Source: a virus. From it: a DNA stretch of 39,979 nt. Of the stretch, positions 6,305 through 39,979 are shown one piece after another. The DNA lies in the IMG/VR virus record IMGVR_UViG_3300025141_000257, positions 1-39,979 of that record. The stretch is one strand, 5' to 3'. Below the pieces are notes generated by a model that made no database searches, was not told the origin of the DNA, and saw nothing but the letters and a program-made list of their open reading frames with translations. Both the position numbers and the translations under genes were made by a program. Position 1 is the first letter of the stretch. Every line of letters begins with the position of its first letter.

Positions 6305-6313
6305 AGAAGAGAA

Positions 6314-6796: not shown

Positions 6797-6819
6797 GTTC
6801 ATGTCTCCTTCGTATCACA

Positions 6820-7281
6820 TCAGGTAACGGATGCCGTCGTGATTGCAGGTCCGCCAACCATGAAGGCTTTGCCTGTGCCGGTTGTTTCGACATCGACATC
6901 AACAACCTCCATGGCGTATGCCACGATGATCAGTTTGTCAACGGCTGGGATAAGTTGCCCAGCAGCGTTCACCGTCAGAGGTGTACCGGCAGCCCAGTTG
7001 TTCGATCCTGATCCCAGATGGGCGCATTCATGGATGCCAGAGAGCGCGATTCTGCCGGAACTGGTCGCCGTGATCTCCGAGGTCACGACCCCGTAGAAAC
7101 CGCAGGACGATGCGGCTGATACCTGCTTGGTGACAACGACCTCGGTTGGCGATGTCGCGATCAGGCCGGAGTCGGTGATGTGAACCACCTCTCCGACAGC
7201 CATGGTTGCCGCCGCCGTAGCCTCTATGGTTTCGGGGTTGAATGTTAGCCCAGCACCGGGCTGAGTAAGTGCAAGTGACAT
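6820..7281 (-). CDS. Capsid decoration-like protein, paralogue 1
   Basis: 153 aa, directly downstream of the major capsid gene. It shares its start, core and C-terminus with the next gene (MAVGEVVHIT, CGFYGVVTSEITATSSGRIA, VNAAGQLIPAVDK, GKAFMVGGPAI). The two ribosome binding regions are also duplicates (GTGATACGAAGGAGACA upstream of both), so the duplication included the leader. The pattern fits DUF2190-like capsid-stabilising or decoration proteins. Two copies may occupy different capsid positions or be alternative surface proteins. Confidence 0.6.
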   Translation of the reverse strand: MSLALTQPGAGLTFNPETIEATAAATMAVGEVVHITDSGLIATSPTEVVVTKQVSAASSCGFYGVVTSEITATSSGRIALSGIHECAHLGSGSNNWAAGTPLTVNAAGQLIPAVDKLIIVAYAMEVVDVDVETTGTGKAFMVGGPAITTASVT

Positions 7282-7299
7282 GTTTGTGTCTCCTTCGTA

Positions 7300-9530: not shown

Positions 9531-9833
9531 TCAATAGTCACGCTTGTACCCGTGCTTCGCGGCGACGTTCGCCTCGTGAGAACGGGATTGAATAATTGGT
9601 TTGCCTTGCCGGTTTGTCTCGCAGCCCTCAAGGTTGCGGGGCAGTGACTGCGACACATACGGGTACTTCCAGCGAATTGCGCCCACATCGATCTGCATGT
9701 CAGTCTCGGGCAGGCGGCGGAACTTCCGGTCTTCCGTCGAAACGACGCTTCCGATCGACGGTGCATCTACCATGGCGTAGGGGAGCCGGACACGTTCCTC
9801 GGTCGTTACATCCTCAAACAGGTACAGTGGCAT
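9531..9833 (-). CDS. FmdB-like small phage protein between portal and scaffold
   Basis: 100 aa. It begins MPLYLFEDVTTEERVRL, which resembles the start of FmdB-type proteins though the usual Cys pairs are missing. The later part has RWKYPYVSQSLPRNLEGC and KPIIQSRSHEANVAAKHGY, a pattern seen in many phage proteins encoded beside the portal. It overlaps the portal 3' end by 20 bases; ATG 9833 is preceded by GGGAGGAAGCACA. Function unknown. Confidence 0.6.
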   Translation of the reverse strand: MPLYLFEDVTTEERVRLPYAMVDAPSIGSVVSTEDRKFRRLPETDMQIDVGAIRWKYPYVSQSLPRNLEGCETNRQGKPIIQSRSHEANVAAKHGYKRDY

Positions 9834-11535
9834 TGTGCTTCCTCCCGTTGCTCTGGTTTTGGGCTTTGGGCTGCTGCTGCTGCTGCTGCATCTGCTGGAC
9901 CGCCTCCTGTAGTCTCTTGGGATCGAGGATCGTGCCAAGTTCTGGCACGTTGATCGAATCACCGACCGTTGACAGAACACGTTTCCAGTCAACCCACGGT
10001 GAAACGACCATCTGCTGGGCGAGTGTGCCAATCACCTGTAACAACTCTCCCCCCCTTCGTTGTTGCTGTACCTCACTCACTCTCTCCATCGACATCGCGT
10101 CGATCGACACAACGAGATCCTCAAACAGCCCAACACCCGTTCCGCCGACGAACACGCCGTCCGGGCTGAACGCGAGGGCCATGGCTTCGTCCCCGATCGC
10201 GAAGGACACCCGGCCATCGTGGAACATGTACCACATGGCTGCAGACACCACGCGGGAGGCTGCGTCGGCAAACTCTCGCTTGAGGTGGGCGATTCGGAGG
10301 CCCGCCGCTGACTCAGCGATAGCCACCTCGGTGGCCGTGGCAGTGCCGGTCACGTTCCCACGCATTGCATCGTGGATGCCAGAGACGCGATCCAGTCGGT
10401 CTTGGGTCAGGCCCGCATACGTCACCTGCTGGGCGGTGATCCCGCCGACTTCAATCGGGACGATCTGAGATGGGTCCAGACCGTCCACAAGGACAACAGT
10501 CAAATCTTCCCGGTCGCGAATGTCGTTGGCGAGTTTCTGGTTGCGGCTGTCCGTGGCGATGATGTTCTTGTAGCAAGATGCGGAGTGTGTCATGCTCCGC
10601 AGGTGATCGTTCAGGTCTGCAATCTGGGGCAGCAGTGACACCACTGGGCTAAGCGGGTACGGATCATCCGGCACGTTGTAGCACCCGAAAATCACGTATG
10701 GGCCACGGTGGCTCCCGTAGTACGGTCGGGGTTCGCGAGCGAAGCCGTATGAGGCCGTTGTCTCGCTGCTCGCTTGGCCCTTGATCACCGTGATGATGCT
10801 GCCGCTGTGCATGTTGGTGTCGTTGAGGAAGTCCATCACCTCTGCCTCAGTGTCGATCTCAGGCACCCAAATCTCGTACACCGTCACCTGCCTGCGGTCT
10901 GGCCCTTCCCGGCCCGCGAGCATGTCTCGCTTGCTGTCATCGTTGCTGCTGCCAATGGACTCGACCAGATCCAAGTCCCACCCGTCCTCGACCTCTGCTT
11001 TCGCGATCAGGTCATCGTGGTCGATCCGGTACGTGTGAGCCATGTACCTCGCTTCCTCGGCGTGAGTCGCCTGCGGGTCGATGATGAAGTCGTGCGGGTC
11101 CAGACGGTACAGCCGGGGGAGCCATGGCTCGTTGCCGTCGATGGTCCGCATGCTGCGTCTTGGCTCGTTGGCGATCATGCCAACACCGAACCCCAGAAGC
11201 ATGTCCGTTGCGATGCGGGAGAGCGTAGTCCGCAGATCCGTCAACCGCACCCACGAGTTGCAAGCCGCCTCCATCTTGGGCGTGAGTGCAACCTGTGAGA
11301 GCGGTGTTCGGCTTGTGATCGATACCTTCGGATTGTCGTAGACAATGCGGGGAAGAATCAGAGCGATGTACTGGTGGACAAAATTCTCCGGGTCGCCGGG
11401 GCCAGCAGTGTCGCCACGGTAATCGGGTCCGGTAAGCCTGCCAATCAAGTCAGACCACGAGGATAGGTGCTGGTCGCGGAACGCCTCCGCAACCTCTAAC
11501 TCCTCTTGCCAACGTGTTAGATCGAACTCAATCAT
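9814..11535 (-). CDS. Portal protein
   Basis: 573 aa. Follows the large terminase and precedes the scaffold. The N-terminal half has portal-like features: RDQHLSSWSDLIGRLTG, ENFVHQYIALILPRIVYDNPKVSI, then ADLNDHLRSMTHSASCYKN and VSGIHDAMRGNVTGTATATEV, as in portals of podoviruses with N-terminal wing and clip and a long helix. The C-terminus is glutamine-rich (VQQMQQQQQQ), in the position of a barrel or tail. ATG 11535 overlaps the end of the preceding small gene. A 35-bp stretch (10597-10631) encoding PQIADLNDHLR recurs nearly unchanged in a virion protein at 35836-35870. Confidence 0.8.
   Translation of the reverse strand: MIEFDLTRWQEELEVAEAFRDQHLSSWSDLIGRLTGPDYRGDTAGPGDPENFVHQYIALILPRIVYDNPKVSITSRTPLSQVALTPKMEAACNSWVRLTDLRTTLSRIATDMLLGFGVGMIANEPRRSMRTIDGNEPWLPRLYRLDPHDFIIDPQATHAEEARYMAHTYRIDHDDLIAKAEVEDGWDLDLVESIGSSNDDSKRDMLAGREGPDRRQVTVYEIWVPEIDTEAEVMDFLNDTNMHSGSIITVIKGQASSETTASYGFAREPRPYYGSHRGPYVIFGCYNVPDDPYPLSPVVSLLPQIADLNDHLRSMTHSASCYKNIIATDSRNQKLANDIRDREDLTVVLVDGLDPSQIVPIEVGGITAQQVTYAGLTQDRLDRVSGIHDAMRGNVTGTATATEVAIAESAAGLRIAHLKREFADAASRVVSAAMWYMFHDGRVSFAIGDEAMALAFSPDGVFVGGTGVGLFEDLVVSIDAMSMERVSEVQQQRRGGELLQVIGTLAQQMVVSPWVDWKRVLSTVGDSINVPELGTILDPKRLQEAVQQMQQQQQQPKAQNQSNGRKHNATVPV
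10597..10631. repeat. 35-bp segment shared with virion protein gene (copy in portal)
   Basis: Bases 10597-10631 match 35836-35870 at 33 of 35 positions and are read in the same frame in both genes: PQIADLN-HLR in the portal and in the 451-aa virion protein. The two proteins do not otherwise look related. Confidence 0.85.
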
Positions 11536-11711: not shown

Positions 11712-11915
11712 TCAACGGCCCGGTGGCGCGGGGACTTGGCTGCGATGATGATTCGGCTTGTTTCGGCCTCGTGGCGATTTCACCGCGTTGCCCGCCCGCT
11801 TCGCCCGTGATGTCCACCCAGATCGGCCCCTTGTGCGGTTTGCTCTTGGTTGGGCAGCGGGGACTGGCCCCATGCCGCTGGTGTCTGTCAAGAACTTGTC
11901 ATATCCACTAGCCAT
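11712..11915 (-). CDS. Small basic hypothetical protein
   Basis: 67 aa. ATG 11915 lies inside the last codons of the large terminase gene (8-base overlap) and has an excellent ribosome site, GAGGAGG, six bases upstream. The protein is short and strongly basic from about residue 24 (RANRTRGRSGWTSRAKRAG and further R/K residues) with no hydrophobic segment. Composition suggests nucleic-acid binding or disorder. Function unknown. Confidence 0.5.
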   Translation of the reverse strand: MASGYDKFLTDTSGMGPVPAAQPRANRTRGRSGWTSRAKRAGNAVKSPRGRNKPNHHRSQVPAPPGR

Positions 11916-13722
11916 TGAGAACCTCCTCGTGGTTCAGAACCGCGCCGAGACTGAAGTCCGGGAGCCGCTCTGTTGGTTCGGGTCCAAGCCCGCCGTCTTC
12001 AGCGAGCAGTAGTGCAAGTGCCAAGGCGATCACACGGTCGCCGTGTGCCTCCCTCGCACCGCTTGTTTCGCTGCGGAGCCGACCGGGGCCAAGTCCGCCT
12101 GTGTCGTACAAGATGTAGTCGCCCAGTTCAGTCAGAACTTCCTCGCCGTACAGCACGATCTCACCTCGACTCAGTACGGTCGATAGCCGACCAAGCAGGG
12201 CGCGTTTGGTGTGCCTTGTCGATGTCCAGCCGACCCGCTTGGTTCGCTTCTCGTCGATAGTGCCGACGATCCGCTCTTTGAACACAGCGGTCCAGCCCGT
12301 GCGGTCCACGTCGTGTTGCAGGGATGCGCCGGGGCCATTCCGCTCCCAGCCCAGCAGCGTCTGCCGCCGCCCCTTGAATACATGCTTGATCATCCGCACC
12401 AGTTCCGATGCGAGGTCGTGTCCACCGATGAACGGGTCAGCGAACTCTGCCGCAACGCTCATGTCCCTGACGTTCAGGATGCACGCCGCTGAGTTGGCTG
12501 CGCCCGTGCCGTACGCTGGGTCAACGCCGCACACGTACTCAGCCGCTGGGTCCGGGTCTTCCCACACGCGCCAAGGGCCACTTGGACTGTCCACTAGTTC
12601 GCCGCCGTCGTAGATGCATCGCCGGGGCTGCCGGACGTTGCCGCGTTGCCGCTCGATGTCACGGGCTGCGAAGAATCGCTCGCCGCCTGCTGCTTCCTCA
12701 GCGAAGACGTTGATCGCAAGGTCAACGCGGTCACGGCGTGTGACCTGTTCTGCAAGCCACGGAGTCCATGTGTACTCGCTCCCTGCGACCCCGGTGATCG
12801 CGCCGTCAGTGTCAAGGCGTTCCATGGCCCCGCGTGACTTCTCTGGGTGATCCGTGTACAGCATCTCGATAAGCGTCGGCGTGCCTGTTGCCCGGCCCTG
12901 TGCCACGAGCGTAGCGTAGTGCGTTCCCGGCCCGACCGGCGTGCTGACGGCAACCCGACAGGATGTGCAGTCGGCAGCCGATCGCCACGCAGCCTCGGCG
13001 TTCTCAAGTGCAGCGAACTCATCGAACACGACGAGGTTCCGTCGCCCACCGCGTCCAATGTGCGCGGTCGCTGCTTGCCCACTAATCGTCGCGCTGCTGG
13101 CCGGGTGCTGGAGCATCAGGTGGCGGCGGAACCTGCCGCTGCCCTTGACGAACTCCGCAGCCGGGGCGGGGAGTAGCCACGACGGAAGTGCCTCAATCAA
13201 GTAATCGATCTTCCAGAAGAGGCAATCGGGATCGCCTGTGCGATCAACCAAGTCCTCTACTCGGCTCACCAGCATGACCTGCCAGTCGTGCAGGAGCCAG
13301 CCCCATACGGCCATTGCACACAGGAGCCACGAGGCCCCCATGTCACGGCTCTTGCGGAGGATGACATCGTGACCGCCGTCAGCGGCAGCCGCGATCGTGC
13401 GGGCTGCTGCGGCCTGTATGGGCCAAGGATTGAACGGTACATCGGGGCGAGTCGTGGGATGCTCGATTCCATGCTCATCAACATCGCGAACATGGAACGT
13501 CCAGCAGCAGAACCGCATGAACATCACCGGGTCGGCGCGGAACACAGCGATCAGGTCGGCTTGTTCACTGCCGCCTGCGAGCAGCACGTTCCGACGCGCC
13601 GAAGCGAGCCGCTTGTCTTCGTCAGTCAGTTTCAATCCATCGGTCCAGAAGTTCCATCCCGCGTCCTGCTTCACCGGATTCGATCTTGATCGGCCCACCG
13701 CCGGGTCCGGACTGCTCGACAC
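11908..13722 (-). CDS. terL: Terminase large subunit
   Basis: 604 aa as drawn. ATPase: a terminase-type Walker A, LRKSRDMGASW (about residues 122-132), and Walker B, LVVFDEF with D-E at about 234-235. Nuclease: GVDPAYGTG, first acidic residue about D401, followed by later conserved segments including GWERNGPGASL. The size and order of motifs are normal for the motor/nuclease that cuts concatemers and drives DNA into the prohead. It follows the small terminase gene, overlapping it by about 100 bases if GTG 13722 is used; GTG 13674 would shorten this to 53. Neither has a strong Shine-Dalgarno. Confidence 0.9.
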   Translation of the reverse strand: MSSSPDPAVGRSRSNPVKQDAGWNFWTDGLKLTDEDKRLASARRNVLLAGGSEQADLIAVFRADPVMFMRFCCWTFHVRDVDEHGIEHPTTRPDVPFNPWPIQAAAARTIAAAADGGHDVILRKSRDMGASWLLCAMAVWGWLLHDWQVMLVSRVEDLVDRTGDPDCLFWKIDYLIEALPSWLLPAPAAEFVKGSGRFRRHLMLQHPASSATISGQAATAHIGRGGRRNLVVFDEFAALENAEAAWRSAADCTSCRVAVSTPVGPGTHYATLVAQGRATGTPTLIEMLYTDHPEKSRGAMERLDTDGAITGVAGSEYTWTPWLAEQVTRRDRVDLAINVFAEEAAGGERFFAARDIERQRGNVRQPRRCIYDGGELVDSPSGPWRVWEDPDPAAEYVCGVDPAYGTGAANSAACILNVRDMSVAAEFADPFIGGHDLASELVRMIKHVFKGRRQTLLGWERNGPGASLQHDVDRTGWTAVFKERIVGTIDEKRTKRVGWTSTRHTKRALLGRLSTVLSRGEIVLYGEEVLTELGDYILYDTGGLGPGRLRSETSGAREAHGDRVIALALALLLAEDGGLGPEPTERLPDFSLGAVLNHEEVLNG

Positions 13723-24220: not shown

Positions 24221-27200
24221 TCACCGTAAAGGTGGGGGTGCATACCCCTTGCGTTTCAATTTGGCATTTGTGTCCTTCTGACCCTCAAGCATGAGTAACC
24301 TTCTCTCCTCGGCCTTGGTCATCGGTTCCGCCTCCCGCTTGCGGCGACGAAGTTCCGTGAGAACTTTCTCGATGTCCGGGCCAGCGGCGATCTTGCGAAC
24401 CTTTCGGGCATACCGGCTCGGTGCTTCGGTGGGTACGCCAGTGAGTGTCGCGACATCGTTGAGAACCCGAATAGCACTATCGAGTGTCTTGCCTGACCAC
24501 TCATCGTCACGCTCGGGACCACCCCACGACTCGGGGCGGATTTTTTTGCCAAGCGAGGCCGTGTTCTCAATCATTTCCGACAACTCGGACAACGCGGCAA
24601 TTTCGACCGGGTCACCGCTCTGATACCCACCTTGGATGATCTGATCCACAGAGTAGAACGCGGAAGAGACAAACCAACCCCACACGCCAGTGCTTTGTGC
24701 GACAACATCCTCCAAAGCCCGCCGCTTCGCCTTGTGAAGACTGTGGTCAATCGCCATCTGCCGCTGAATTTCGCGGTCAACCTTGTTCCACTCATCATCA
24801 TCATCGAATAGTGAGAACAACCCGGCGGTGGTGGCAAGTCCCACACCGGAGGACAGCCCAGAGTTCAGCGTAATCGCCACAGCCGTCCTGCCCGCGCGTG
24901 CGGGGTCAACCCAGAAGTCCCTTGCGGCGTGTCTCAATTGATTGTACGCCTTCAGTGGATCGCTGGAGAACATCAACAGGGCGCGGAACGCGCTGTTCCG
25001 TCCCTTGACCCTCGCGGCGTACATGGTGTCATCCATCGCGTCAGATGTGTTCTGGGTCCGGCGGAACGTCATCGCCGCACGGTCAACGGCCTGCTCAAAC
25101 GTCAGCCCCTCGGCCATGTGGCCGCGAACCGCGATCAACATGATCTGTCTATCGATCCCCCGGAGAACATGATCAAGACCACGGACTACCGAGAGCAGGC
25201 CGAGGCCAAGTTGACCACTGGCCTTGATCGAATCAACCACCTTATCCACAGCAGAGGCTGCGTCATCCTGACCAATCTTCTTCATCGACCGAGCGAACGA
25301 AGTGAGCGTTGTGAGAAGTTTGCGGTGGCTTCCTGTGTCTCGCAGAAGGTTTGAGTACCTTCCAATCTGGGATCGCCTGTGCCGCTCGTTGAAGTAACCA
25401 CTCTGCTCCTCGACTCTGCGAATCATCTCGCCCCTCATACCCGGAGTGAGATTTCTGACATCCGCGAACCCCTGAGTCCATGAGAGCATTGGCATCTCCG
25501 ACATCAGTCGGAACGCCCCGCCGAACATGCGGACCCACGTTTCCACACTAGCAACGAGATAGGCTCCGGCGACGTTGCTTTGAATACGATTCAACCAACT
25601 AGAATCAGACTGGGTTCCGGTCAGTCCAACCCCGTATTTGAGCATGTCGCGTATTCGATCGATGGAGTTGTCGCCCATCTTCTCGCTTATGGCGGACGAA
25701 ATATCCTCATCGCGAAGCAACGCATCAAACTCTCGCAGTGGTCTACTCAGGTGAATGACAGAAAGTGATTCTGAAACGTGGTGGTCAAACACACTGAACA
25801 GGTTCGCGATCACAATCGCAGCACCGCCGCCCGTCCGCTTCTGGAGGAATCCAGCGTTGTCGAGCGTGGCGGTACCCGCCTCATTTAGAGATGGTGGCGT
25901 GAGCGGGTCAATAGCAGTTGAACTTTGCCCCGTGAGATCCGTTCCGAGTTCGGCGCGGCGACGAGCGCGGGGCCAATAGTTCTCCACCACCGGCGGCATC
26001 TTCCCGTGCTGTTCGTGATGCACATCAAACGCGCGATCGCGAATATCCTCCTCCAAGATGTTCTTGAGGTCTTGGATAAGTTGCATGTGCTTGGGGCCGA
26101 CCATCTCCCTGACGGCCTCGACCTCATCTTGTGAGGCTTGTATTTTTTTCCGGTTGGCTATTGATCGGAACACGATCCCCGGCCCATCACCATCCTCAAG
26201 GATCGCGGCTTGGTCACGGGGCAGTGTGGAAACTGTTTCATCATCCATCGCGGCGATCGACAGAGCCTCGGACAACTTGATTGTCATCTGTTTGCCACCG
26301 AGTGTCACTGTGAGTGTCGCCGCCGCAGTTTCACCGTACATGTCCGTGGTCTTTGCGAGGAAGTCTTCCTTAGAGGAGTACCCTGCTCGCTCCAGAGCCT
26401 CCCCAACCTTCTCATCTATAGATCGTTGATCCAGCCACATCCGACTCTTCGCGGCACGGATTTTATTCCACGCTCTCCTGAGAACAGAATCTTTGCCCGC
26501 GATGGTTTCAAAGATCCCGTCCGCGTCTTGTGATTCCTGAAACTTCTCACTGATAATCCCCGGCTTGGTGGCAGCAGTATCAGTGCGGCTACCCTGAAGA
26601 CCGTGAGACTGCTGCGTAGCCCAGTTCGCATCCGTGGCACGGATGTTCGCGGCTTCTTCTTCCTTGTCCGCCTGTAGTCGCTCTCGCCTCTGGGCAACAG
26701 CCTCTTTCCAAGAGAGCCGATCCTGCTGGTACACATCGATCGCGATCTCAAGCAGATCGCGGGCGCGGCTGAGACGATCAAGTGTCTCAGTCACTGAGTC
26801 GAGGTTGATGACCCGGTTGTTGCTCCCGGTGAGCAGCCCCTCCGCAAGATCGAGGTTTCGCTTGACCTCGGCTCTTGCTGTGTTTCTCATTCCCCGCTTG
26901 TTGAAACGCTTGCGGATATTCTTGATGTCCACTCTGGTGGCGGCAGCCTCAAACTGTGCGGACACCGCCACAACCTCATGTGCAATCTTGCTGACATCAG
27001 CGAGTGTCTGCGCGGCGAGAGCGCGTCCCATGAAGCGGCCACGCAACTTGCTCGGCAACACGGCCTGAGCCGCCATGACCGCTCTCCTTACCTCCCGAAG
27101 TTCACCCTTCAGTTCCTTGACCGCCCCACTCGCGGCGCGTTCCTCGGCCTTCAGTTTGATCCGCAGGTTCCGTACCTTCTCCTTCTCGGAGCGAGCGTCG

Positions 27201-30200
27201 ATCTTCGCGAGTTTCTCACGGAGTTTCCGGCGACCAACTTCCAGACCCTCCTTGTAACCAACCTTCGCGGCCTTGGCCTTTGCCGATTGCTGGCCCCTGA
27301 GTGCTATGTATTCCTTCCGTGCTTCCTCCGTTTCCTTGGTCATTTCGCGTGCATAAGCGCGCAGGGCTGTGGCAACGACTTTGTCGGAGGTGTTCCGGGC
27401 TTGATCACGCAGACCCTTGACAATCGACCGTGAAGTCCTGTAGTCGAATACCTGATCCCGTGCCGAGCCGATCGGGAGGGGCGCGTCATCGCGGGCGGCG
27501 AGAGTGTCGGCGGTTTGATCCTTGACTTGGTCTGGATCAGATGGTACGATTGCCCCTGAATCGCCCTTGGCCTCTTCTGCGGAGGACGCATTAGATTGCC
27601 GGGGCGGTTCATTTTTTTTCTGGTCAACCGTTCTATTTCTGACATCTGCGATCGTCCAAATGTCTGCTTGTCGCTCCTTGGGCTTTCTTGCGGACTCCAG
27701 CGCGTAGATCACTTTGCCTTCATCCGAGAGTTTGGACAACATGTCCATATTCTCAGGTGCGAAAGCCGTGGTGAGTACAAGTGCATTCGGGCCATGGGGG
27801 GACAATTTCTGAACGGAGATGCCCACCATGATTGGTGCGGAAAAGTCAACGCCGCCTGACTTCCCCTGCGGACCACGACGATGTGGTTGTCGGAGTGCTG
27901 ACCTGATCCAAACACCGATCCCCGCCTTGCCAGTACGGGGGTCGTGGTACTCTGTGATTGCCAGAGGGTCGGAGAGGTATTGCGGAAGATCGTCCCACAC
28001 ATAATCAGGGATGCGGTGTGCTGGATCAACAGCGTCCCTGAACCCTGACGCAGACTTCTCATTGATAAGTTTCGGTCGAACCATGACGGTTGACGGGACA
28101 CCTTCACCACCAAAGATCCCCCTAATTCTTCCAACCTTCGCCCTTCCCAGAACGCTCAGGAACAAATCCGTCGCGTCACCGATCACCGCCGCATGCTTTG
28201 TTTCTCCACGGCGGATCGTTCTGAGAGAATCCGACCAACTGGCCCCTGCTACATCGCCTTCGCGGGCGTTGAGGGTGTCAACCGAATCAACTGTGGACTT
28301 TACTTCTTGGGCGACTCGTCCGACTTCGGTGTTGAACTTGGCTTGCTGCTCGGAGATACGGCTGAGTGCATGACGTATCCGCCAGCCGCGACTTCTGCCA
28401 ACGGCCCCGCCAACGGCTCTCCGATCTTCCGGTGAGGCACGCCCAACCGCTTCAGTTTTTCCGCCAGCCGAGAGAAGTTCACGGAGGTCGGCTTCCGTTG
28501 GGGCGACTTGTTCGATTGCTTGTCGTTGGGCATTGGTCAGTCCGTTCTGCCAGTCAGAATCTGGCGAAGCATCCTCTGCAATTATATCATCAACAAGGGC
28601 TTCGTGACCCCTAGCATAATCGGAATCGAAACTTGCGTCAAGGTATTCCATGTCAGCGTAACCGTCTTGCACGGTTGCACCAATTAGTTGGGCTGACGAG
28701 CCGATGACATCTTCAAACGCCTCGTCCGACATGGACTCCATTGGGTCACTGATGAGAACAACATCCCCAGAGGTGGCTGGGACGATGGTCACAGTTGCCG
28801 AGGGTGCTACCTCGTTCATGTGCTTTGTTAGTTGCTCACGTTCGGTCTGGCTTATGGTGCGGCCAGCGGTGTACAACTGTGCCGAATCGACCGGGTTTGT
28901 CATTCCGGCCTTGTCATCAGCGAATCGAATTGCGCCTTGACCCTCTTGCTGAAGCACAGTTCCAAACAGACGCATAAGAACAAGCCGCTGATCTCTGGTC
29001 ATCCCCGCCATGGAGATGATCATGTTGGGCGACATCACACCACCCCACAACCCCACCGCGCCTTGGCCTTGTTTGTCTACGCCTTCAGACAGCGTGATGA
29101 GCCGGATTGGCTTGTTGGGGTTGTCAATGTCTGCCAACGCCTGAGTAGGGTTGTACCTTCGCCCTGTAATTGCGGAGATTAGTTCTCCCAACATGGGGTG
29201 CGCCAAGGTCTGCTTGGGCAGAACACCTGTGGCGTTCGACAACGCTTGGTTGGCCCCGGTTGTCCCACGAAACCTGTGACCCTTTGGCTTGTTGTCAACC
29301 TCTTCTTGGGTAATCAGGCCGCTGCCCTTTCCCGCAAGCCATTTCATAAACGATGTATGAACCGCATCCAGTTTTGATCTCTGTTCACGAAGAGTCTTCT
29401 TTGTGTCCTCGTCAACACCTTCTTGCTCTAGCCCGACAGCAATACGCTGACGTTGTTCAGACTCCAGTTGGCCCTCGGGTGTCGCAGTTGTTCCAACCTC
29501 TTGGGTAATCGCCTGCTCTTTCCGGGCTGTGGTGCTTGGCTCCAGTGTTTCACTGAACGACTTGGGGGCAACGGCTGCGATCTCTAGGTCGATACCCTTG
29601 CGACCATCCGGCAAATCCACAACCGCTGAGTGGTTTTCGCGTACCAGTTGATCAACAACCTCATCAATCGCGATGGCAAATGAATCGCTTTTACTGAGGT
29701 GTGACCACGGGTAAGCCATGAACTGGCCGGGCGACCAAGGGGTAATCAATACTTCTTCGGACACCGACAGTGGTTGGCCCGCGTCGTACTTGGCCTTTGC
29801 AGACTGATACTCATCAGTAGCCTGCACCTTCTCGTTCATTATTTCGGTCAAGTGACCAAAGTAAACGGATTGATATTGGTAGACGTATGGGTCTGCAAAC
29901 GCCTTATTGTCACCAGTGCCGGGATACTGGTCCGTGTCCTTTGCGTCAGACATGTCTCTAAACTTGGACATGTACGCCACCCAGATGTCGTTTGTGGTCA
30001 GCGGTACATTGGGATCTAGACCAAGTGCATGAAGAAATGCAGGAGCAAACGATCCGGTCTTATAATTATTACCACCACGCAATGTTCCTGACAACGCTTT
30101 GCGAACAAGCGGAGCAGATTGCATTCCAATCCAGTTTGGTCTTTCTGCCAACGCATCTACCATCACACCCAAGGCACGGCGAAAGTTTTGTGACACAGTT

Positions 30201-33200
30201 GCCTGCGGAGATGTGGCTGACAAGAAGTCTGCAAACAATGTCAACCTCTCGGCAGCAATGGGTCCGTTGTCTGGGTTCAAACCGACAAGTCTCTCGGATG
30301 CGGCTAATGCAGATGATTCAAACCAGAACCTGTCACCGTTTGTCCGATCAGGGTCATTGAGTGTGTTGTTGAAAATATCAACGTCAAATAGTGGCAACTC
30401 ACTTCGGTCGCCCTGTTGACTTGCCCCCAACCCACCACTCATCAAATTCCGTACAATTTCGGCGCGACCCTCACCTATTGTTTCCGCCGCCAGCCGACTT
30501 GCTTCTTTCACATCCCCATCATCAAAAGTCACATTGTATTCAGTACGGGATCGCCTAACTTCTTCACTGCCAGCGAGGCGACCACTAATGAGTTCGGATG
30601 GCTTGCCGGGCTGGTACGGGTTTGTTTGTCCACCGAGCCTTACGGACTCTGGGGTTGCGTCCCGAATGTCCTCCGTCTGCACCTTGGACTTTGGCTTTCC
30701 TGCTATCTTTACACCTTCACGGGCGAACAGCGTCCCCTGCTCACCCTCCTCTTTGCCGGGCTTCTGCTCCACTTTCTCTTCGGTGTCTACGACTACAGGG
30801 GCTGCCTCCTCGACAGGGGCTGCCTCCTCGACAGGGGCTGCCTCCTCGACAGGGGCGGTTTCCTCGACAGGGGCGGTTTCCTCGACGGGCATGATCTCTT
30901 GGATCGCTGCTTGAACACGCTGCTCTGCTGACGCGAGGATTCGCATTTGTTGCAGTTGCCTGTACACAGCGAGGTCTGCCGCATCCGTGGAAGGACTCCA
31001 TGCACGGCCACCGCCAAGAGCAGTGGAAGCACGAACCATTTCTATGGTCTTGAGGGCCGCATACACGGCGCGGCCTCGACCTCCGAGTCTGATCCATGCC
31101 CGTCCGATCTTCCCCGCTCTCGCTGCTACGGCGGCTCCGCGTTCCACCGCAACCGCCGTACCCTCAAGACTTGTGTATGTGGCAGCAGCCGCAGCGGCAC
31201 CAGGGGCCATGCTACCGGGATCTTCGCCCCGTTCAATAGCATCGAGCAGAGTTATTGCGTGGTGATCTTCCGCAGTTAGTGTTCCAGCCGCTTCCCCTTG
31301 GCGTACATATTCCCTGAGCGCGTCGGCAATCGTTGATCCGCCAAGAATCTTCTGTATTGCTGCATGCGCGACGGGGTCGGTGACCGATAGATAGTGAGTG
31401 GATTCGTGCAAACCCTTTGAGATGGCCTTGTCAGCGTCCATTGAACCTGTTTGCAGATACACGACATCTGGTGTGGAAGCATTCCACTGCGCTGGGCCGG
31501 GCAAGCCATCCACAAACTGCACCCGCAGTCCCATAACTTCAGTCAAGAATTTTCTGGCCGCTTCGTCGGCTGCCGTGGTAGCCGAGGCTGCGGTGATACC
31601 TTGCTTCCCAAACTTGCCGTCTGCAGCGAGGAGTTTCTCGGGAGATGATGTTTCCCACTTGGACTCGCCCGCAATGGCGGCTTCACCCGCTATCTGTGCG
31701 AACTTGTTCTGAACGACGCGCTCTGTTGCCGCGTAAAGCATCTCCACAGAAGACCTGTAGTCTTGTACCACACGCTCCGCGCTCACGGTGCCAGCCGCAT
31801 CCGCTGCTTCGTTGCGTTGCTGCTCATACGCGGCCTTCGCGAGCCGGATTCCACCAGCGGTTGCCACCACGCTCTCAGCACTCGCATCCATATCTCCAAG
31901 AGCCTCGACCGCTGCGGTGAACCCCTCATGGTTTGCGATCTCAGACACCTCGCTCATGGCACGAAGCGACCCCTTGATCGCGGCCACCGCCTCACCCACC
32001 GCCTCGGGAGATCCGCTCTCAGAGGCAGTCTCAAGAGCCGTCAGGCCAGCGTCCAACGACTGGGCCGCAGCGGCGTATGCCTCGGCTTGTGGTGTGCCGT
32101 GCGTCTTTGCCAGTTTACCCAATGCCCTCGACCGTTTCCCAAGTTCCACTGCTTCGGCAACGGCTTCCTTGGCCCTCCTCGCCAGACCCTTGACAACAGC
32201 CCCTCGGCCCTCTCGCGGTGTGGCTCGCACAGCGTCGAATGCCGCCTGCCCTGTACCAAATGACCGCTCCATGGCTTCTGCCGCCGAGAACAACCCCCGG
32301 CTCACCAGATCATCATGCGCTTTTTCGTATTGTTCTAGAGCCTTCGCATTCACCATTGCCTGCTTGAGCATGAATGCGGGCTGGAACGCGAAACCTGCAG
32401 CCGCTCCCATGTAGAACGAATGGGTCATGTCATCGAGCATTTCCCCCCACGTTCCGCTCACCTCGTTGGTGACTGCTGGCAACAGTGTGTGTTGAAGGGC
32501 CGATGCAAAGGATTCCTCGGTCCCCTCAACCACAGAGGCAGTAAAGAGTCCGGCTACAACCCGCTTCTTCCAGCCAGCCGTGGACCCGGTGATTGCTCTC
32601 TTCGCAACCTCGCCCATGGCACCAAGGCCAATCCTCTCGGTCACCGCCTCAATAGCGGCGGATGTGCTTGCGTACACCAGCGAGTCCCAAGAATCGTAGT
32701 CAAACTCTCCTGTGGCACTCTTTGCGCCATAGGTTTCCCCCGCTCCCGCAAACGCCTGAGATCCCATCAGGGAAGCACCGGCTGTGCCGCCGGTCAGAAG
32801 GGTGAGTCCAATCGCCGGTGCCATGTTCCCAAGCGTGTATGGAATGCCGTGTATAGAGAGTGCGTTTATGCGCGCGATCCTGCCTTGGCGAAACGCCTCG
32901 TCCTCCTCTTCCGATATTCCGGTTACATACTCAAAGATCCCGCTGGGTGTTACTGTCCGAACAAAAGAACCCCACGTACCCCACGCGGTCTGCTTCGCAT
33001 GATCGATACCCGCCCGCCGACGCGGTGCTGGATCACCCGCTAGATCGTAATTCTCGTGGTACAACCGCATGCTATTGGTCTTGTCAACCCCGAGTTGGAA
33101 GGCAGCGTGCTGTTTTCGGGTTTGCTGACCAACTGGCAACTCGTCGGAATATCCAAGCAGGCGCATCCATACTCGGGCCGCCCAGTCTTCTTCGGAGCCT

Positions 33201-33508
33201 TCCCACGCGGTCCCATACATGCCGCCACTTTGTTGGTATCTACCCCGAGCCTCAAAGTTATACTCATTGATCGGAGCAGAGTGCCATGAGGCTCTAAAGA
33301 TCGGCGGCTCGTTGATGAGGCTCTCAAGAGCGGGGCCGTCCAGCGGTGGTCTGGCTGCTGTCGGTTCAGGATCCAACCCAAACCTTTCGTTGTGCGCATC
33401 CTGTTGGGCCGGGCTGAGATTTCTGAAATCAAAGTCGGGATCAAACGGGTCGGATGGGGGTGGGGCAGCCGGTGTACGGAGCCACGGGTTGGTTGGTGTA
33501 GTTGACAC
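24221..33508 (-). CDS. Giant virion protein (3,095 aa), polyvalent ejection-protein type
   Basis: One open frame of 3,095 codons, GTG start at 33508. N-terminal 450 residues: Pro-rich start, helical, with hydrophobic segments such as APAIGLTLLTGGTAGASLM. Residues about 701-705 are HESTH, an HExxH metal-protease-like motif. About 871-906 is an 18-bp-repeat-coded VEEAAP tract. About 1060-1250 carries SPQATVSQNFRRAL ... GGNNYKTGSFAPAFLHALG ... LTTNDIWVAYM, a domain pattern of large phage proteins. About 1760-1950, with IPDYVWDDLPQYLSDP, matches the MuF C-terminal/barnase-EndoU-like fold pattern. A long coiled coil follows (about 2055-2145), then an alpha-helical C-terminus with FRRTQNTSDAMDDTMYAARVKGRNSAFRALLM, as in large polyvalent proteins. 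It is likely ejected with DNA into the host. Confidence 0.75.
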   Translation of the reverse strand: MSTTPTNPWLRTPAAPPPSDPFDPDFDFRNLSPAQQDAHNERFGLDPEPTAARPPLDGPALESLINEPPIFRASWHSAPINEYNFEARGRYQQSGGMYGTAWEGSEEDWAARVWMRLLGYSDELPVGQQTRKQHAAFQLGVDKTNSMRLYHENYDLAGDPAPRRRAGIDHAKQTAWGTWGSFVRTVTPSGIFEYVTGISEEEDEAFRQGRIARINALSIHGIPYTLGNMAPAIGLTLLTGGTAGASLMGSQAFAGAGETYGAKSATGEFDYDSWDSLVYASTSAAIEAVTERIGLGAMGEVAKRAITGSTAGWKKRVVAGLFTASVVEGTEESFASALQHTLLPAVTNEVSGTWGEMLDDMTHSFYMGAAAGFAFQPAFMLKQAMVNAKALEQYEKAHDDLVSRGLFSAAEAMERSFGTGQAAFDAVRATPREGRGAVVKGLARRAKEAVAEAVELGKRSRALGKLAKTHGTPQAEAYAAAAQSLDAGLTALETASESGSPEAVGEAVAAIKGSLRAMSEVSEIANHEGFTAAVEALGDMDASAESVVATAGGIRLAKAAYEQQRNEAADAAGTVSAERVVQDYRSSVEMLYAATERVVQNKFAQIAGEAAIAGESKWETSSPEKLLAADGKFGKQGITAASATTAADEAARKFLTEVMGLRVQFVDGLPGPAQWNASTPDVVYLQTGSMDADKAISKGLHESTHYLSVTDPVAHAAIQKILGGSTIADALREYVRQGEAAGTLTAEDHHAITLLDAIERGEDPGSMAPGAAAAAATYTSLEGTAVAVERGAAVAARAGKIGRAWIRLGGRGRAVYAALKTIEMVRASTALGGGRAWSPSTDAADLAVYRQLQQMRILASAEQRVQAAIQEIMPVEETAPVEETAPVEEAAPVEEAAPVEEAAPVVVDTEEKVEQKPGKEEGEQGTLFAREGVKIAGKPKSKVQTEDIRDATPESVRLGGQTNPYQPGKPSELISGRLAGSEEVRRSRTEYNVTFDDGDVKEASRLAAETIGEGRAEIVRNLMSGGLGASQQGDRSELPLFDVDIFNNTLNDPDRTNGDRFWFESSALAASERLVGLNPDNGPIAAERLTLFADFLSATSPQATVSQNFRRALGVMVDALAERPNWIGMQSAPLVRKALSGTLRGGNNYKTGSFAPAFLHALGLDPNVPLTTNDIWVAYMSKFRDMSDAKDTDQYPGTGDNKAFADPYVYQYQSVYFGHLTEIMNEKVQATDEYQSAKAKYDAGQPLSVSEEVLITPWSPGQFMAYPWSHLSKSDSFAIAIDEVVDQLVRENHSAVVDLPDGRKGIDLEIAAVAPKSFSETLEPSTTARKEQAITQEVGTTATPEGQLESEQRQRIAVGLEQEGVDEDTKKTLREQRSKLDAVHTSFMKWLAGKGSGLITQEEVDNKPKGHRFRGTTGANQALSNATGVLPKQTLAHPMLGELISAITGRRYNPTQALADIDNPNKPIRLITLSEGVDKQGQGAVGLWGGVMSPNMIISMAGMTRDQRLVLMRLFGTVLQQEGQGAIRFADDKAGMTNPVDSAQLYTAGRTISQTEREQLTKHMNEVAPSATVTIVPATSGDVVLISDPMESMSDEAFEDVIGSSAQLIGATVQDGYADMEYLDASFDSDYARGHEALVDDIIAEDASPDSDWQNGLTNAQRQAIEQVAPTEADLRELLSAGGKTEAVGRASPEDRRAVGGAVGRSRGWRIRHALSRISEQQAKFNTEVGRVAQEVKSTVDSVDTLNAREGDVAGASWSDSLRTIRRGETKHAAVIGDATDLFLSVLGRAKVGRIRGIFGGEGVPSTVMVRPKLINEKSASGFRDAVDPAHRIPDYVWDDLPQYLSDPLAITEYHDPRTGKAGIGVWIRSALRQPHRRGPQGKSGGVDFSAPIMVGISVQKLSPHGPNALVLTTAFAPENMDMLSKLSDEGKVIYALESARKPKERQADIWTIADVRNRTVDQKKNEPPRQSNASSAEEAKGDSGAIVPSDPDQVKDQTADTLAARDDAPLPIGSARDQVFDYRTSRSIVKGLRDQARNTSDKVVATALRAYAREMTKETEEARKEYIALRGQQSAKAKAAKVGYKEGLEVGRRKLREKLAKIDARSEKEKVRNLRIKLKAEERAASGAVKELKGELREVRRAVMAAQAVLPSKLRGRFMGRALAAQTLADVSKIAHEVVAVSAQFEAAATRVDIKNIRKRFNKRGMRNTARAEVKRNLDLAEGLLTGSNNRVINLDSVTETLDRLSRARDLLEIAIDVYQQDRLSWKEAVAQRRERLQADKEEEAANIRATDANWATQQSHGLQGSRTDTAATKPGIISEKFQESQDADGIFETIAGKDSVLRRAWNKIRAAKSRMWLDQRSIDEKVGEALERAGYSSKEDFLAKTTDMYGETAAATLTVTLGGKQMTIKLSEALSIAAMDDETVSTLPRDQAAILEDGDGPGIVFRSIANRKKIQASQDEVEAVREMVGPKHMQLIQDLKNILEEDIRDRAFDVHHEQHGKMPPVVENYWPRARRRAELGTDLTGQSSTAIDPLTPPSLNEAGTATLDNAGFLQKRTGGGAAIVIANLFSVFDHHVSESLSVIHLSRPLREFDALLRDEDISSAISEKMGDNSIDRIRDMLKYGVGLTGTQSDSSWLNRIQSNVAGAYLVASVETWVRMFGGAFRLMSEMPMLSWTQGFADVRNLTPGMRGEMIRRVEEQSGYFNERHRRSQIGRYSNLLRDTGSHRKLLTTLTSFARSMKKIGQDDAASAVDKVVDSIKASGQLGLGLLSVVRGLDHVLRGIDRQIMLIAVRGHMAEGLTFEQAVDRAAMTFRRTQNTSDAMDDTMYAARVKGRNSAFRALLMFSSDPLKAYNQLRHAARDFWVDPARAGRTAVAITLNSGLSSGVGLATTAGLFSLFDDDDEWNKVDREIQRQMAIDHSLHKAKRRALEDVVAQSTGVWGWFVSSAFYSVDQIIQGGYQSGDPVEIAALSELSEMIENTASLGKKIRPESWGGPERDDEWSGKTLDSAIRVLNDVATLTGVPTEAPSRYARKVRKIAAGPDIEKVLTELRRRKREAEPMTKAEERRLLMLEGQKDTNAKLKRKGYAPPPLR
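30795..30884 (-). repeat. Five 18-bp tandem units coding VEE(A/T)AP
   Basis: Units of 18 bases from 30795 (ACAGGGGCTGCCTCCTCG; last two with GCGGTTT) encode VEEAAP or VEETAP on the minus strand. A flexible acidic Pro-rich linker in the giant protein, able to change length by slippage. Confidence 0.9.
31317..31348. repeat. 32-bp segment shared with nuclease gene (copy in giant virion gene)
   Basis: Partner of 21392-21423. It encodes ILGGSTIADAL at residues 721-731, 16 residues after the HESTH motif of the giant protein. Confidence 0.85.
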
Positions 33509-33517
33509 GGCTAGTTC

Positions 33518-35287
33518 TTAGTTCCTGAGGTCATCACGCGAAAAACGTCCTCGGCGAAGTCGGTCTGTGAATGAACCCGCTTGGTCATCGGTTCCCCCTG
33601 TTGCCGGACGATCGCTCTGACCAGTCGGATATGGCGGCGATTGGCGGCCCAGCATCTGACCAGCGACCCAACTGTGAAGTTCGTTCAGGGCTGCGACAGT
33701 GCTTTGCTCAAATCCTGATGGGTTCCCGGATTGAACTTCGGCAAGTAGTGAAGTCACTGCCATAACATGGTTCATGCCTTTATCTAGGATGAGGCTCTCA
33801 ATAGCGGCGGCAGCACGCGGGTCGGTACTACGGAAGTCATTGAGCATCTCTCCGACCCTCCGGTTACCTTCTCCGCTGTTGAGGATGTCAATGATTGTGG
33901 TCATCTTGCTTCTCTGCCCCTGATCCTGCGGTGGACCCGGCGGATCGGGGCTGGACCCCGCTGGGTCCGGGGGGCTTTGGTAGAAGACTGGCGTGATGTA
34001 GTCGGTGTGCTTCCTCATATCCTCTATCGAACTAATGAGCGGGATTGCCAGCAACTCGCGTTCTTCTTCGGACAGCGGCTTCCACCCTTGCATCCGAAAA
34101 ATCCGCCCGATTTCGTCAAATGTTGGCCCTGTCGCCGCCATTGCAGCCTCATCTACATCGAAGTATTCCGCGCCCGAATTGTTGTTCCTCTTTTTCCAAG
34201 AACTCATGTCTGGTGGCTTGTATTGGGTGTTCACAAGAGAAGCGACCATTACATAGTGTCCAAGGACATCCCGCATGTCGTTTGAGGTCTTGCCCAGATT
34301 CTTCCAATTTTGGTAGATCGACATGTCCGGTTCCGCCGCCTGCATCGGGAGTCTTTCGTTCTGCGCGACCACATCAATGGATTTCGGAACGGAGTTGAAG
34401 AACGAAGCGGGCTTGGGCAAAGTAGTCACTTGCAACTTGACACTCTTTTGCCATTCCCCGTAGGTGCGGGCGTTGTTGGTGAATCTAATTCCATCACGAA
34501 CGACCCCGACCTTCGCCACAGCGTCAGTGACATCTCGACCCCGGTATCTGTGCAGTGGGTTATCGGTCAATCGGTCTTTCAGTAACATTCCCATGATGCT
34601 GTCTATTTGTTTTGTTGACGTACTCGGCGGCAACTGGGTGATGCCCAGATATTCAAGTTCTGTATTGACCCACGCCGCCGCATCCTCGGACCTTGCCCGC
34701 TCGTCCCCCAACAATTCGGCTTTCTGGTTTGCGACAGTTCTCTGTGCGTGATCTTGTTGTAGTGCCTCTATCGCAGTCTTTGGGGATGCTTGCCACATCA
34801 AACCATAAATCTCTTTGTCGAGATCGGGAATATCCATTTGGGTAATCATGTTGTTCCACTGCGAACTTAGTGCCGCCCGATCCTGCGCTGCGTTGCGGCG
34901 GAACATGAGTTCCTCCCTCGCCTGAGAGCGTTGAGTCAACATCGCGCCCCACTCACGACTGCTGACATTCACATACTGCGACTCACCCTTGGTGTCGATG
35001 AAGTGAACAAACGGAACGCCATCGGACCCCGCACCGAAGTCCAGAGCCTCTAGCAACTGTGGATCACCCGTCTTGATCGCACGGTCCACACCAGAGAGAT
35101 CCAACGCAACGGTCCCGGCGACCCGACGTTGTCCCATAAATTTCTGACGCTCTGGGTCGAGTTCGCCTCCGGGGACTATCTGAGAAACAACCGCACTGGA
35201 GAAAGCCGCGTCACGGCGAGCATTCTCTGGAACGTATGCGGCATCAAAGGCGGCGATCTCCTCCGCTGTGTATTTGTTTGGTGGCAC
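33518..35287 (-). CDS. Internal virion / ejection-type protein
   Basis: 589 aa, GTG 35287 with GAGGAG upstream. Helical and charged; N-terminus MPPNKYTAEEIAAFDAAYVPENARRDAAF, a Pro-rich linker SSPDPPGPPQDQG near residue 450, then a helical end. No catalytic motif seen. It stands between the 451-aa virion protein and the giant protein and reads like a podovirus internal core protein. Function inferred from place and composition. Confidence 0.5.
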   Translation of the reverse strand: MPPNKYTAEEIAAFDAAYVPENARRDAAFSSAVVSQIVPGGELDPERQKFMGQRRVAGTVALDLSGVDRAIKTGDPQLLEALDFGAGSDGVPFVHFIDTKGESQYVNVSSREWGAMLTQRSQAREELMFRRNAAQDRAALSSQWNNMITQMDIPDLDKEIYGLMWQASPKTAIEALQQDHAQRTVANQKAELLGDERARSEDAAAWVNTELEYLGITQLPPSTSTKQIDSIMGMLLKDRLTDNPLHRYRGRDVTDAVAKVGVVRDGIRFTNNARTYGEWQKSVKLQVTTLPKPASFFNSVPKSIDVVAQNERLPMQAAEPDMSIYQNWKNLGKTSNDMRDVLGHYVMVASLVNTQYKPPDMSSWKKRNNNSGAEYFDVDEAAMAATGPTFDEIGRIFRMQGWKPLSEEERELLAIPLISSIEDMRKHTDYITPVFYQSPPDPAGSSPDPPGPPQDQGQRSKMTTIIDILNSGEGNRRVGEMLNDFRSTDPRAAAAIESLILDKGMNHVMAVTSLLAEVQSGNPSGFEQSTVAALNELHSWVAGQMLGRQSPPYPTGQSDRPATGGTDDQAGSFTDRLRRGRFSRDDLRN

Positions 35288-38392: not shown

Positions 38393-38499
38393 CGGGTTCC
38401 TCCCTCTCCAACCGGGTAGAAGTCAACATCGATGAGGTCGTATCTCACCCACATCATGTCATTAGCCATTCGGTGATTCGCCAACTCGGGTGAGGTCAC
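38389..38499 (-). CDS. 36-residue ORF coupled to two virion genes
   Basis: GTG 38499 overlaps the stop of the preceding gene by GTGA, and its TGA overlaps the next start by ATGA. The peptide, ending DLIDVDFYPVGEGGTR, has no recognisable domain. Tight overlap at both ends favours a translated link; a pure spacer with chance starts remains possible. Could be a regulatory or small structural peptide. Confidence 0.4.
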   Translation of the reverse strand: MTSPELANHRMANDMMWVRYDLIDVDFYPVGEGGTR

Positions 38500-39290
38500 G
38501 GTGGATCCTCCCCGGGGCTGAAGATCCCGCCCAAGAATCCGCCAATTAGACCCTCGCTGATCGATCCGATCAGTCCCTCGCCAAAGGTTTCTTGTCCTGC
38601 GGCTCCATACAACATCTGGCCCTGTTGATTGAGTCCACCAGTCATAATGTTGGCCCAACCACCCATGTTGTTCATGCCCATACCGGCAGCACTTGCAGCA
38701 CCACCCTGTTGCATGTTCGCCAGTTGTGTGGCGTAGCCCCCACTCAAACCTGCGGTTGCGGTGTGGTACTGCGAGGACATATTAGCCAAGCCCTCGGTCT
38801 TGCCTCTCTGGAGAGCCGAGAGTCCGGTTGCGTATTGTTCTTCGACCATTCCCTTCTGCATAGCACCCTGTGTTCCATATGCCCCAACGGCCTGCTGACC
38901 AAATGTCGTGTTGCCCAGACCAGAGAACGCATTGGTTTGAGCCTGCCTCCGTTGGTTTGCCAGTGTGTTTTGATCTATGGCTTGCAGAGTGTTCTGCCGA
39001 CCAACGTCATAGGTGCCGATCGCGGCATCCATACCCTGCGTGTAGTCGGCAACCCTGCTTTCATACCCGGATTCAAATTGCTGCAACAAGTCATTGAAGT
39101 TCGATGAGTATTCATCTTGTGATGCTTGCAGGCTCTGTAGGTATTCCGCGATGATGGCATCGTTCTGGTCGCGGTATGTGTTCGCAACGTCAGTGTATCG
39201 GCCCATCATCGAGTTCGCTACATCGCTCTGACGGCCCGCCGGTCCCTCGCCCATCACGTCAGTCACAAAGTCACTGATAAATTCAGGCAT
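38496..39290 (-). CDS. Internal virion protein (ejection protein A-like)
   Basis: 264 aa, ATG 39290 overlapping the previous gene by eight bases. A coiled-coil-prone middle (QNDAIIAEYLQSLQASQDEYSSNFNDLLQQFESGYESR, then GTYDVGRQNTLQAIDQ) is followed by Met/Gly/Ala-rich segments and the hydrophobic end GLIGSISEGLIGGFLGGIFS. This is the layout of small podovirus internal virion proteins of the T7 gp14 kind. No enzymatic motif. Position in the virion-protein block supports the call. Confidence 0.55.
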   Translation of the reverse strand: MPEFISDFVTDVMGEGPAGRQSDVANSMMGRYTDVANTYRDQNDAIIAEYLQSLQASQDEYSSNFNDLLQQFESGYESRVADYTQGMDAAIGTYDVGRQNTLQAIDQNTLANQRRQAQTNAFSGLGNTTFGQQAVGAYGTQGAMQKGMVEEQYATGLSALQRGKTEGLANMSSQYHTATAGLSGGYATQLANMQQGGAASAAGMGMNNMGGWANIMTGGLNQQGQMLYGAAGQETFGEGLIGSISEGLIGGFLGGIFSPGEDPP

Positions 39291-39756: not shown

Positions 39757-39979
39757 CAGTGTCCGCCCCCGCAGCAATCACAATCACCGGCGAGTTCGGT
39801 ACATGGGTTGATCACCTCAGGGCAACCGGCGGGAGCATGGGGGCATTTCGCTACCCCGCCACAAGGTATCACTGTTCCATCACCACAACACATCGGGAAC
39901 GCGTGCCACTGGCCTCCCTTTCCTACAACGCAGTCAGACTGTGGCATCAACTCTCCACTACAATTGTCGTACAGTGGGG
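39756..39979 (-). CDS. C-terminal end of the tail nozzle protein (partial)
   Basis: The frame enters from the right edge and ends at TGA 39756 with Cys-rich GDCDCCGGGH. On the circular map it joins the gene ending at base 1. The overlap with 1-158 covers most of it; the last 21 residues plus stop are present only here. Confidence 0.85.
   Translation of the reverse strand, partial: PLYDNCSGELMPQSDCVVGKGGQWHAFPMCCGDGTVIPCGGVAKCPHAPAGCPEVINPCTELAGDCDCCGGGH
39822..39979. repeat. Right copy of terminal overlap
   Basis: Matches 1-158 at 154 of 158 bases. Three of the four differences fall within ten bases at the segment coding VGKGGQW(R/H)(G/A)FP(V/M)CCGDG. Confidence 0.9.

Follow-up and report, generated by a model that had tools for sequence, protein, structure and literature searches.

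A giant phage polyvalent protein with fixed ends, exchangeable middle cassettes, and a private seam motif that its own candidate zincin may cut

The giant open reading frame (ORF) of the viral contig analyzed here (IMG/VR record IMGVR_UViG_3300025141_000257, 39,979 nucleotides, hereafter the window) encodes, judging from sequence homology, a phage polyvalent protein that joins this group as a new member with a private seam motif. We propose that this protein has fixed ends and exchangeable cassettes, with the seams cut by its own zincin; the cleavage is putative, and we consider the proposal as a whole evenly poised between right and wrong. It builds on ends shared with relatives, an exchanged middle, ART domains in one relative, motifs placed at the seams, and a matching of motif to zincin in other giant proteins; the virion location, the zinc binding, and the cleavage together with its timing are inferred.

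The ORF occupies positions 24221–33508 on the minus strand, runs uninterrupted over 3,095 codons from a GTG start, and takes up 9,288 of the 39,979 bases (23%). The length and the genome share agree with the earlier note on this DNA, in which the strand was absent. The ORF is real, as a relative, R, has an open 3,108-codon orthologue (locus L012, 871–10197) in the same gene order. The contig is near a complete genome, since copies of a 158-bp terminal repeat, in direct orientation and with 97.5% identity, lie at positions 1–158 and 39822–39979 and join its ends. With PHROG names, the minus-strand gene order starts with the terminase (11908–13722), the portal (9814–11535), a 310-aa ORF, and the major head protein (7300–8586), and continues through the small head genes, a tail gene (3378–4574), and then, across the contig ends, ORFs of 164, 264, 572, 494, and 589 aa to the giant ORF. 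The order from the terminase to the giant ORF is kept in R, where the 264-aa ORF (38496–39290, minus strand) is syntenic with an ORF of 270 aa (38% identity, 175 aligned positions) and the upstream 589-aa ORF (33518–35287, minus strand) with one of 588 aa (28% identity, 181 aligned positions). T7-type podoviruses encode their internal virion proteins at the corresponding position, after the head and tail genes. The giant protein is thus probably packed in the virion and injected with the DNA; its earlier designation as a virion protein agrees with the place of the gene after the head and tail genes, this order being the sole basis for it. Tandem small head-gene paralogues (6313–6820 and 6819–7305, 80% identical in DNA) lie beside the major head protein gene.

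Searches with the giant protein gave zero matches above cut-off in Pfam and in PHROGs and none in tblastn against annotated phages and plasmids, and two stretches searched against viral contigs were likewise without a match. Related IMG/VR contigs were reached through the portal, and 2 of the 15 examined carry the giant gene: G003 (38.8 kb), with the complete 3,108-aa ORF of R, and G011 (20.3 kb), where the last 1,612 codons only of a second relative, T, are present, the front being cut off by the contig end. The other 13 contigs, mostly short fragments, gave no match to the gene. The window protein, W, is 30.5% identical to R over W106–933, the homology ending at residue 933, and 66% identical to it over W1997–3094; between residues 933 and 1997 no homology to R is detectable. 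The identity to T is 65% over W1983–3095. These alignments define a constant rear of ~1,090 residues in all three proteins, a constant front in W and R, and an exchanged middle at ~933–2002. The N-terminal conserved part spans residues 1–926 (30731–33508, minus strand) and the C-terminal chassis residues 2003–3095 (24224–27502, minus strand). The chassis has zero matches in Pfam, PHROGs, or PDB sequences, was not found in the GTDB genomes searched, and was found in only two other viral contigs. Just before the first seam described below lies a repeated A-P-V-E-E-A linker (~30779–30871, residues ~880–910), found in R too. At the chassis start, R has an in-frame insertion relative to W and T that resembles a duplicated coiled-coil unit of ~45 residues.

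The upstream stretch of T, 528 aa long, scores 134 bits against ART-PolyVal, with a cut-off of 31.2, over four stretches. Because this relative holds ART-PolyVal above the Pfam cut-off in the exchanged middle, the window protein is taken to be a phage polyvalent protein. As the shared ends, the exchanged middle, and the ART-PolyVal of T indicate, it is a very large chain of unrelated domains, and the conserved gene order places it among virion genes. It resembles the polyvalent proteins described by Iyer et al. (PMC5512222) in being giant and multidomain, in its virion gene context, in its HExxH candidate, in the ART cassettes of its relative, and in its mosaicism, but differs from them in that no domain of W passes a curated cut-off: no polyvalent domain was found above threshold in W with Pfam or PHROG, and LPD38, DUF7178, and MPTase-PolyVal are silent across the window genome. 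The earlier suggestion that enzymatic parts are sent into the host cell with the DNA is supported by homology, through the ART-PolyVal in the exchanged middle of T, and by the gene order. In picturing a giant protein that carries enzymatic cassettes and is probably injected, that reading was right; it had missed the module exchange, the seam motif, and a possible DUF7178-like nature of residues 1060–1250, as well as the strand.

The exchanged middle of W consists of two cassettes. Cassette A, residues 933–1745 (28274–30712, minus strand), is without homology to the middle of R, and no database relative was found for it. Within it, at residues 1055–1260 (29729–30346, minus strand), hhalign aligns one stretch (SATSPQATVSQN ... 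TTNDIW) with the equivalent motif of two families found in other polyvalent proteins, one of which is DUF7178 by Pfam in locus L124. The expected stretch is picked, but not significantly: residues 1060–1250 score 19.6 against the family that R shares with DC33 and plasmids (22 members; shuffle maximum 20.1) and 16.0 against the DUF7178-like sequences (4 members; shuffle maximum 22.1), and PF23802 (DUF7178) has no match in the window genome. A DUF7178-like domain at residues 1060–1250 is thus possible and is offered as a lead; the region had been described as having no known function, and it resembles this family, but without significance. A T-x-D-x-W pattern in the region presumably resembles endonuclease III; an HhH-GPD glycosylase was considered here and rejected, the hhalign scores falling within the shuffle range against both families. 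Residues 1499–1617 (28658–29014) form an alpha/beta stretch, ferredoxin-like in a low-confidence model, and the best hit in a structural comparison (Z 5.0) is to a ferredoxin-like design, which is uninformative.

The second cassette, B, contains at residues 1760–1960 (27629–28231, minus strand) a candidate BECR/MuF_C-like region. The MuF_C profile matches the giant protein at residues 1830–1854 with 12.5 bits (E 0.16), far below the curated cut-off of 27.6; searched in its own genome it gives 10.6 bits (E 0.017), and the same search gives sub-threshold matches in 3 of 14 control genomes. MuF_C was found in 0 of 49 viral records, the controls being silent too, and the region has no match among PDB sequences. 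A single-sequence AlphaFold model (mean pLDDT 39) has helices followed by four strands at 1817–1913, with pLDDT 30–40 there, and candidates for the BECR His (N-terminal helix) and Ser/Thr (late strand) can be picked by eye at the same pLDDT of 30–40. Of the MuF/barnase–EndoU pattern proposed earlier, the sub-threshold match is what stands, and a nuclease at residues 1760–1960 is a guess, kept as a lead.

The middle of R contains a certain member of the first of the two hhalign families (E 7e-26). Among ten GTDB loci, this family occurs in nine giant ORFs (1,386–5,293 aa). Plasmids of alphaproteobacteria carry the domain as well, in single ORFs on L032 and L035 (Bosea; 533 and 518 aa) and on L033 and L034, the Bosea copies lying near an LPD1 protein gene. 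In one Hydrogenophaga MAG locus (L041), two FSARD motifs and several ART-like ones lie in an open frame of 5,293 codons. A by-eye impression that the middle of R is GNAT-like was dropped, as Pfam gives nothing.

A zincin-type peptidase is likely present, as a candidate, around residues ~640–790 of the window protein. The HESTH at residues 701–705 (31394–31408, minus strand), pointed out earlier as a possible protease site, is indeed there and is the sole HExxH of the giant protein. It is a candidate zinc site, and Glu782 (31163–31165, minus strand), in an E-G-x-A context, is a candidate third zinc ligand, its role being deduced from conservation in the W/R alignment. The motif alone is not decisive, because 4.95% of 2,000 composition shuffles of the giant protein contain an HExxH. 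A window protein free of any peptidase, with HESTH arising by chance, would fit this frequency, and it would also fit an unusable structure model and the lack of any profile-library or PDB-sequence match over threshold for the region; MPTase-PolyVal is silent in W, in R, and in the seven other records searched alongside. We nevertheless consider a chance motif quite improbable, because R, the sole relative covering the region, keeps both the HExxH (HEADH at the aligned place) and Glu782 in a region 36% identical, and because HExxH is common in this class of proteins, the long ORFs examined having it in 71 distinct contexts. A two-sequence AlphaFold model of the region (mean pLDDT 39, ~50 locally) has a helix, three strands, and the HExxH helix, and a helix, a three-stranded sheet, and an HExxH helix is the order given for the zincin-like fold by Iyer et al. 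(PMC5512222). The protease site is plausible from conservation and, at low confidence, from the order of the secondary structure, but it has no profile match over threshold. Compared with the profiles of the two zincin classes defined below, the window zincin scores 18.1 against Z1 (best of 60 column shuffles 19.3) and 20.3 against HAL (shuffle best 18.1), which places any connection to the other zincin classes at the edge of chance and not clearly beyond it.

The seam pattern, [LF]x[AS]R[ED][DEG], was defined after viewing the three proteins. It occurs exactly three times in each of them: at residues 927, 1746, and 2003 of W, at 961, 1966, and 1978 of R, and at 60, 336, and 524 of T. In shuffled proteins the mean is 0.11–0.19 copies, and three copies were obtained in 0, 1, and 0 of 1,000 trials (T being a fragment); the pattern is found in 0 of 17 other ORFs of the window. 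In W, seam 1 (LFAREG, residues 927–932, 30713–30730, minus strand) lies at the end of the N-terminal homology at 933, seam 2 (LNAREG, residues 1746–1751, 28256–28273, minus strand) separates the two cassettes, and seam 3 (LAARDD, residues 2003–2008, 27485–27502, minus strand) lies at the start of the C-terminal homology at 1997, so that the outer two are at most 6 residues from the break points 933 and 1997. The seams of T are placed in the same manner, one ahead of each of two ART domains and one ahead of the chassis. The codons differ among the seam copies of the W family. Near the ART anchors of other polyvalent proteins the window-type seam, in a related pattern, is not enriched (5 of 61, p 0.51), and in three zincin groups its observed and expected counts are 2/3.1, 4/3.2, and 4/3.0, the last group including a piece of R. 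With no enrichment of this type outside the window family, the match of zincin to seam there rests on three related proteins.

Seams of other types were examined in 79 viral loci with ART-PolyVal-like domains, which gave 87 anchors, 74 of them in ORFs with a length of 1,000 aa or more and 61 of these 74 non-redundant. An [FY][SQ] at most 22 residues before the ART extension is present at 30 of the 61 anchors versus 13.2% of control windows (p 1.4e-11), with a peak at −11. For the zincins, 96 non-redundant giant HExxH ORFs from viral contigs and phage records as well as some bacterial genomes, with the piece of R included, were classed by HMM as Z1 (S-T-F-L-H-E-[S/T]-[G/A]-H; 26), HAL (R-H-E-[A/G]-[I/V]-H-A-L; 41), or other (29). 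The type of seam motif is matched to the zincin class, xxQ going with one class and [FY]S or [KR][FYL]SLR with others. With one pattern, and counted per classable ORF (n = 27), the ART tails are 14 Q and 0 S with Z1 and 0 Q and 13 S without it (p 5e-8); with a broader pattern, 64 ART tails divide into 19 Q for Z1, 17 S, 1 Q, and 7 unassigned for HAL, and 13 S and 7 unassigned for the others. Seams before the ART give 11 Q, 0 S, and 8 without a seam for Z1, 2 S, 1 Q, 1 with both, and 2 without for HAL, and 7 S, 3 Q, and 11 without for the others (overall p 6e-4); 22 of these 46 anchors are without a class and 4 non-Z1 anchors are Q, and HExxH is lacking from the ORFs of 15 further anchors. A first test of the seams (17/0 versus 12/11, p 8e-4) was set aside for its loose pattern, which produced false Q calls, in favor of the ART-tail counts above.

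In the 41 HAL proteins, [FYLAQ]SLR is observed 62 times against 8.7 expected, the other groups having 8/5.5 and 4/6.6, counts that are not a blind test because the pattern came to notice in proteins belonging to this set. At least one copy is present in 20 of the 41 HAL ORFs, and [K/R][F/Y/L]SLR recurs at successive joints, up to six times; in the two HAL proteins scanned with Pfam, the SLR seams lie 21–22 residues before and 9–10 after the ART domain. An out-of-sample test of HAL tails (n = 36) was underpowered, with 3 S, 1 Q, 7 unassignable, and 25 without a tail, and 369 genomes of one class held too few cases to use (ART-PolyVal in 4 of 369; Z1 zincin in 2 of 369, of which L199 yielded no ORF and L200 no tail).

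The seams could alternatively be recombination joints or linker signals that are kept through cassette exchange and remain uncut. The modules are exchanged exactly at the seams, and the DNA is alike around seam 2 of W and seams 1 and 2 of T, as such joints would predict. To ask whether ancestry explains the seam types, 42 ARTs with a classed tail were paired to the nearest ART in another ORF (E ≤ 1e-3, identity ≤ 85%). Both zincin class and seam type are shared in 24 of the pairs, and the seam type differs in 17 of the 18 cross-class pairs, which are not independent, because several are reciprocal; the single exception has the tail DIRYKKG, read as Q further on by the pattern. ARTs up to 49% identical (L085 and L104) carry an ILNQ end beside a Z1 zincin and an IRFS end beside another zincin. 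A neutral joint need not track the zincin class in this way when a similar ART adjoins another zincin. At the DNA level, the codon triplets of the SLR seams within an ORF (11 ORFs) differ in 71 of 80 pairs, including AGY versus TCN serine, which argues for selection on the protein level, and are identical in 9 of 80, where codon usage predicts 0.7, a surplus in line with copied joints. The SLR seams are thus under protein-level selection with some copying, and we regard uncut joints as unlikely, though far from remote.

The reading that we prefer, in which the built-in zincin cuts the seams, has both precedent and counterexample. Peptidases of polyvalent proteins were proposed in 2017 to process the polypeptide, by Iyer et al. 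(PMC5512222), where P1 DdrB, like W a polyvalent protein with an HExxH peptidase, is reported to be cut before packaging. The N4 virion RNAP has such a peptidase domain and, according to the same paper, is packaged unprocessed, which speaks against self-cleavage. No RNAP family surfaced in W in the Pfam and PHROG searches. The preprint PMC12633501 on N4 gp50 describes a giant ejected protein with an HExxH domain (C1) next to a mostly helical C2 of ~1,100 residues; W is alike in having an HExxH domain and a long C-terminal part, the chassis of ~1,090 residues, but differs in that its HExxH is N-terminal to the cassettes, and the likeness is one of description.

Closer in genome layout are Limnohabitans phage DC33 (3,125 aa) and Podoviridae ctEw122 (2,792 aa), whose giant proteins are likewise encoded late in the structural block of ~39-kb genomes and carry an HExxH (HETAH in DC33). 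That of DC33 has ART-PolyVal and LPD22 above the cut-off, and both have one domain in common with R. They differ from W in lacking significant similarity to it, including in a profile comparison of the window-family chassis with the DC33 and ctEw122 chassis, and in their Q-type seams (LFNQ, by eye). The DC33 record (L015, PQ492659.1, 39 kb) bears an Inoviridae taxonomy line at odds with its gene content.

It may also be that the seams are cut by another protease, of the phage head or of the host, and that host proteins, or nothing at all, are the targets of the HExxH domain. Iyer et al. (PMC5512222) also weigh effector roles for such peptidases; a head protease was not named in the window, yet the PHROG scans covered only 20 of its ORFs besides the giant one. 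Against this, the seam type follows the class of the zincin carried on its own chain, and we consider this reading improbable.

In the mechanism that we propose, the giant chain would comprise a constant front bearing the zincin, a variable effector middle (933–2002), and a constant rear of ~1,090 residues, probably serving packaging or ejection. Short seams, L-x-[A/S]-R-[E/D], would link the cassettes, and the built-in zincin would recognize this motif of its own chain and cut there, before or after injection, freeing the cassettes; a cassette would be exchangeable if it ends in the right seam. More generally, polyvalent proteins may be polyproteins made programmable by a seam code, in which every class of zincin reads a short cut site of its own, an extension that we hold to be a little less probable than its opposite. 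The sites of such a code would be x-x-Q, [K/R][F/Y/L]-S-L-R, and here L-x-[A/S]-R-[E/D], present at every joint, and a moving cassette would adopt the local site, which we again judge plausible but somewhat short of an even chance.

Neither the seam motif nor the matching of seam to zincin was found in the open-licence literature searched, and the excerpts of PMC5512222 name neither a cleavage motif at domain joints nor a link between such a motif and the class of zincin. Concrete seam sites matched to a peptidase class make the processing proposal of 2017 directly testable. If the proposal is true, the seams would also mark the borders of effector domains of unknown kind, such as residues 933–1745 and 1752–2002, and would explain how the cassettes stay exchangeable.
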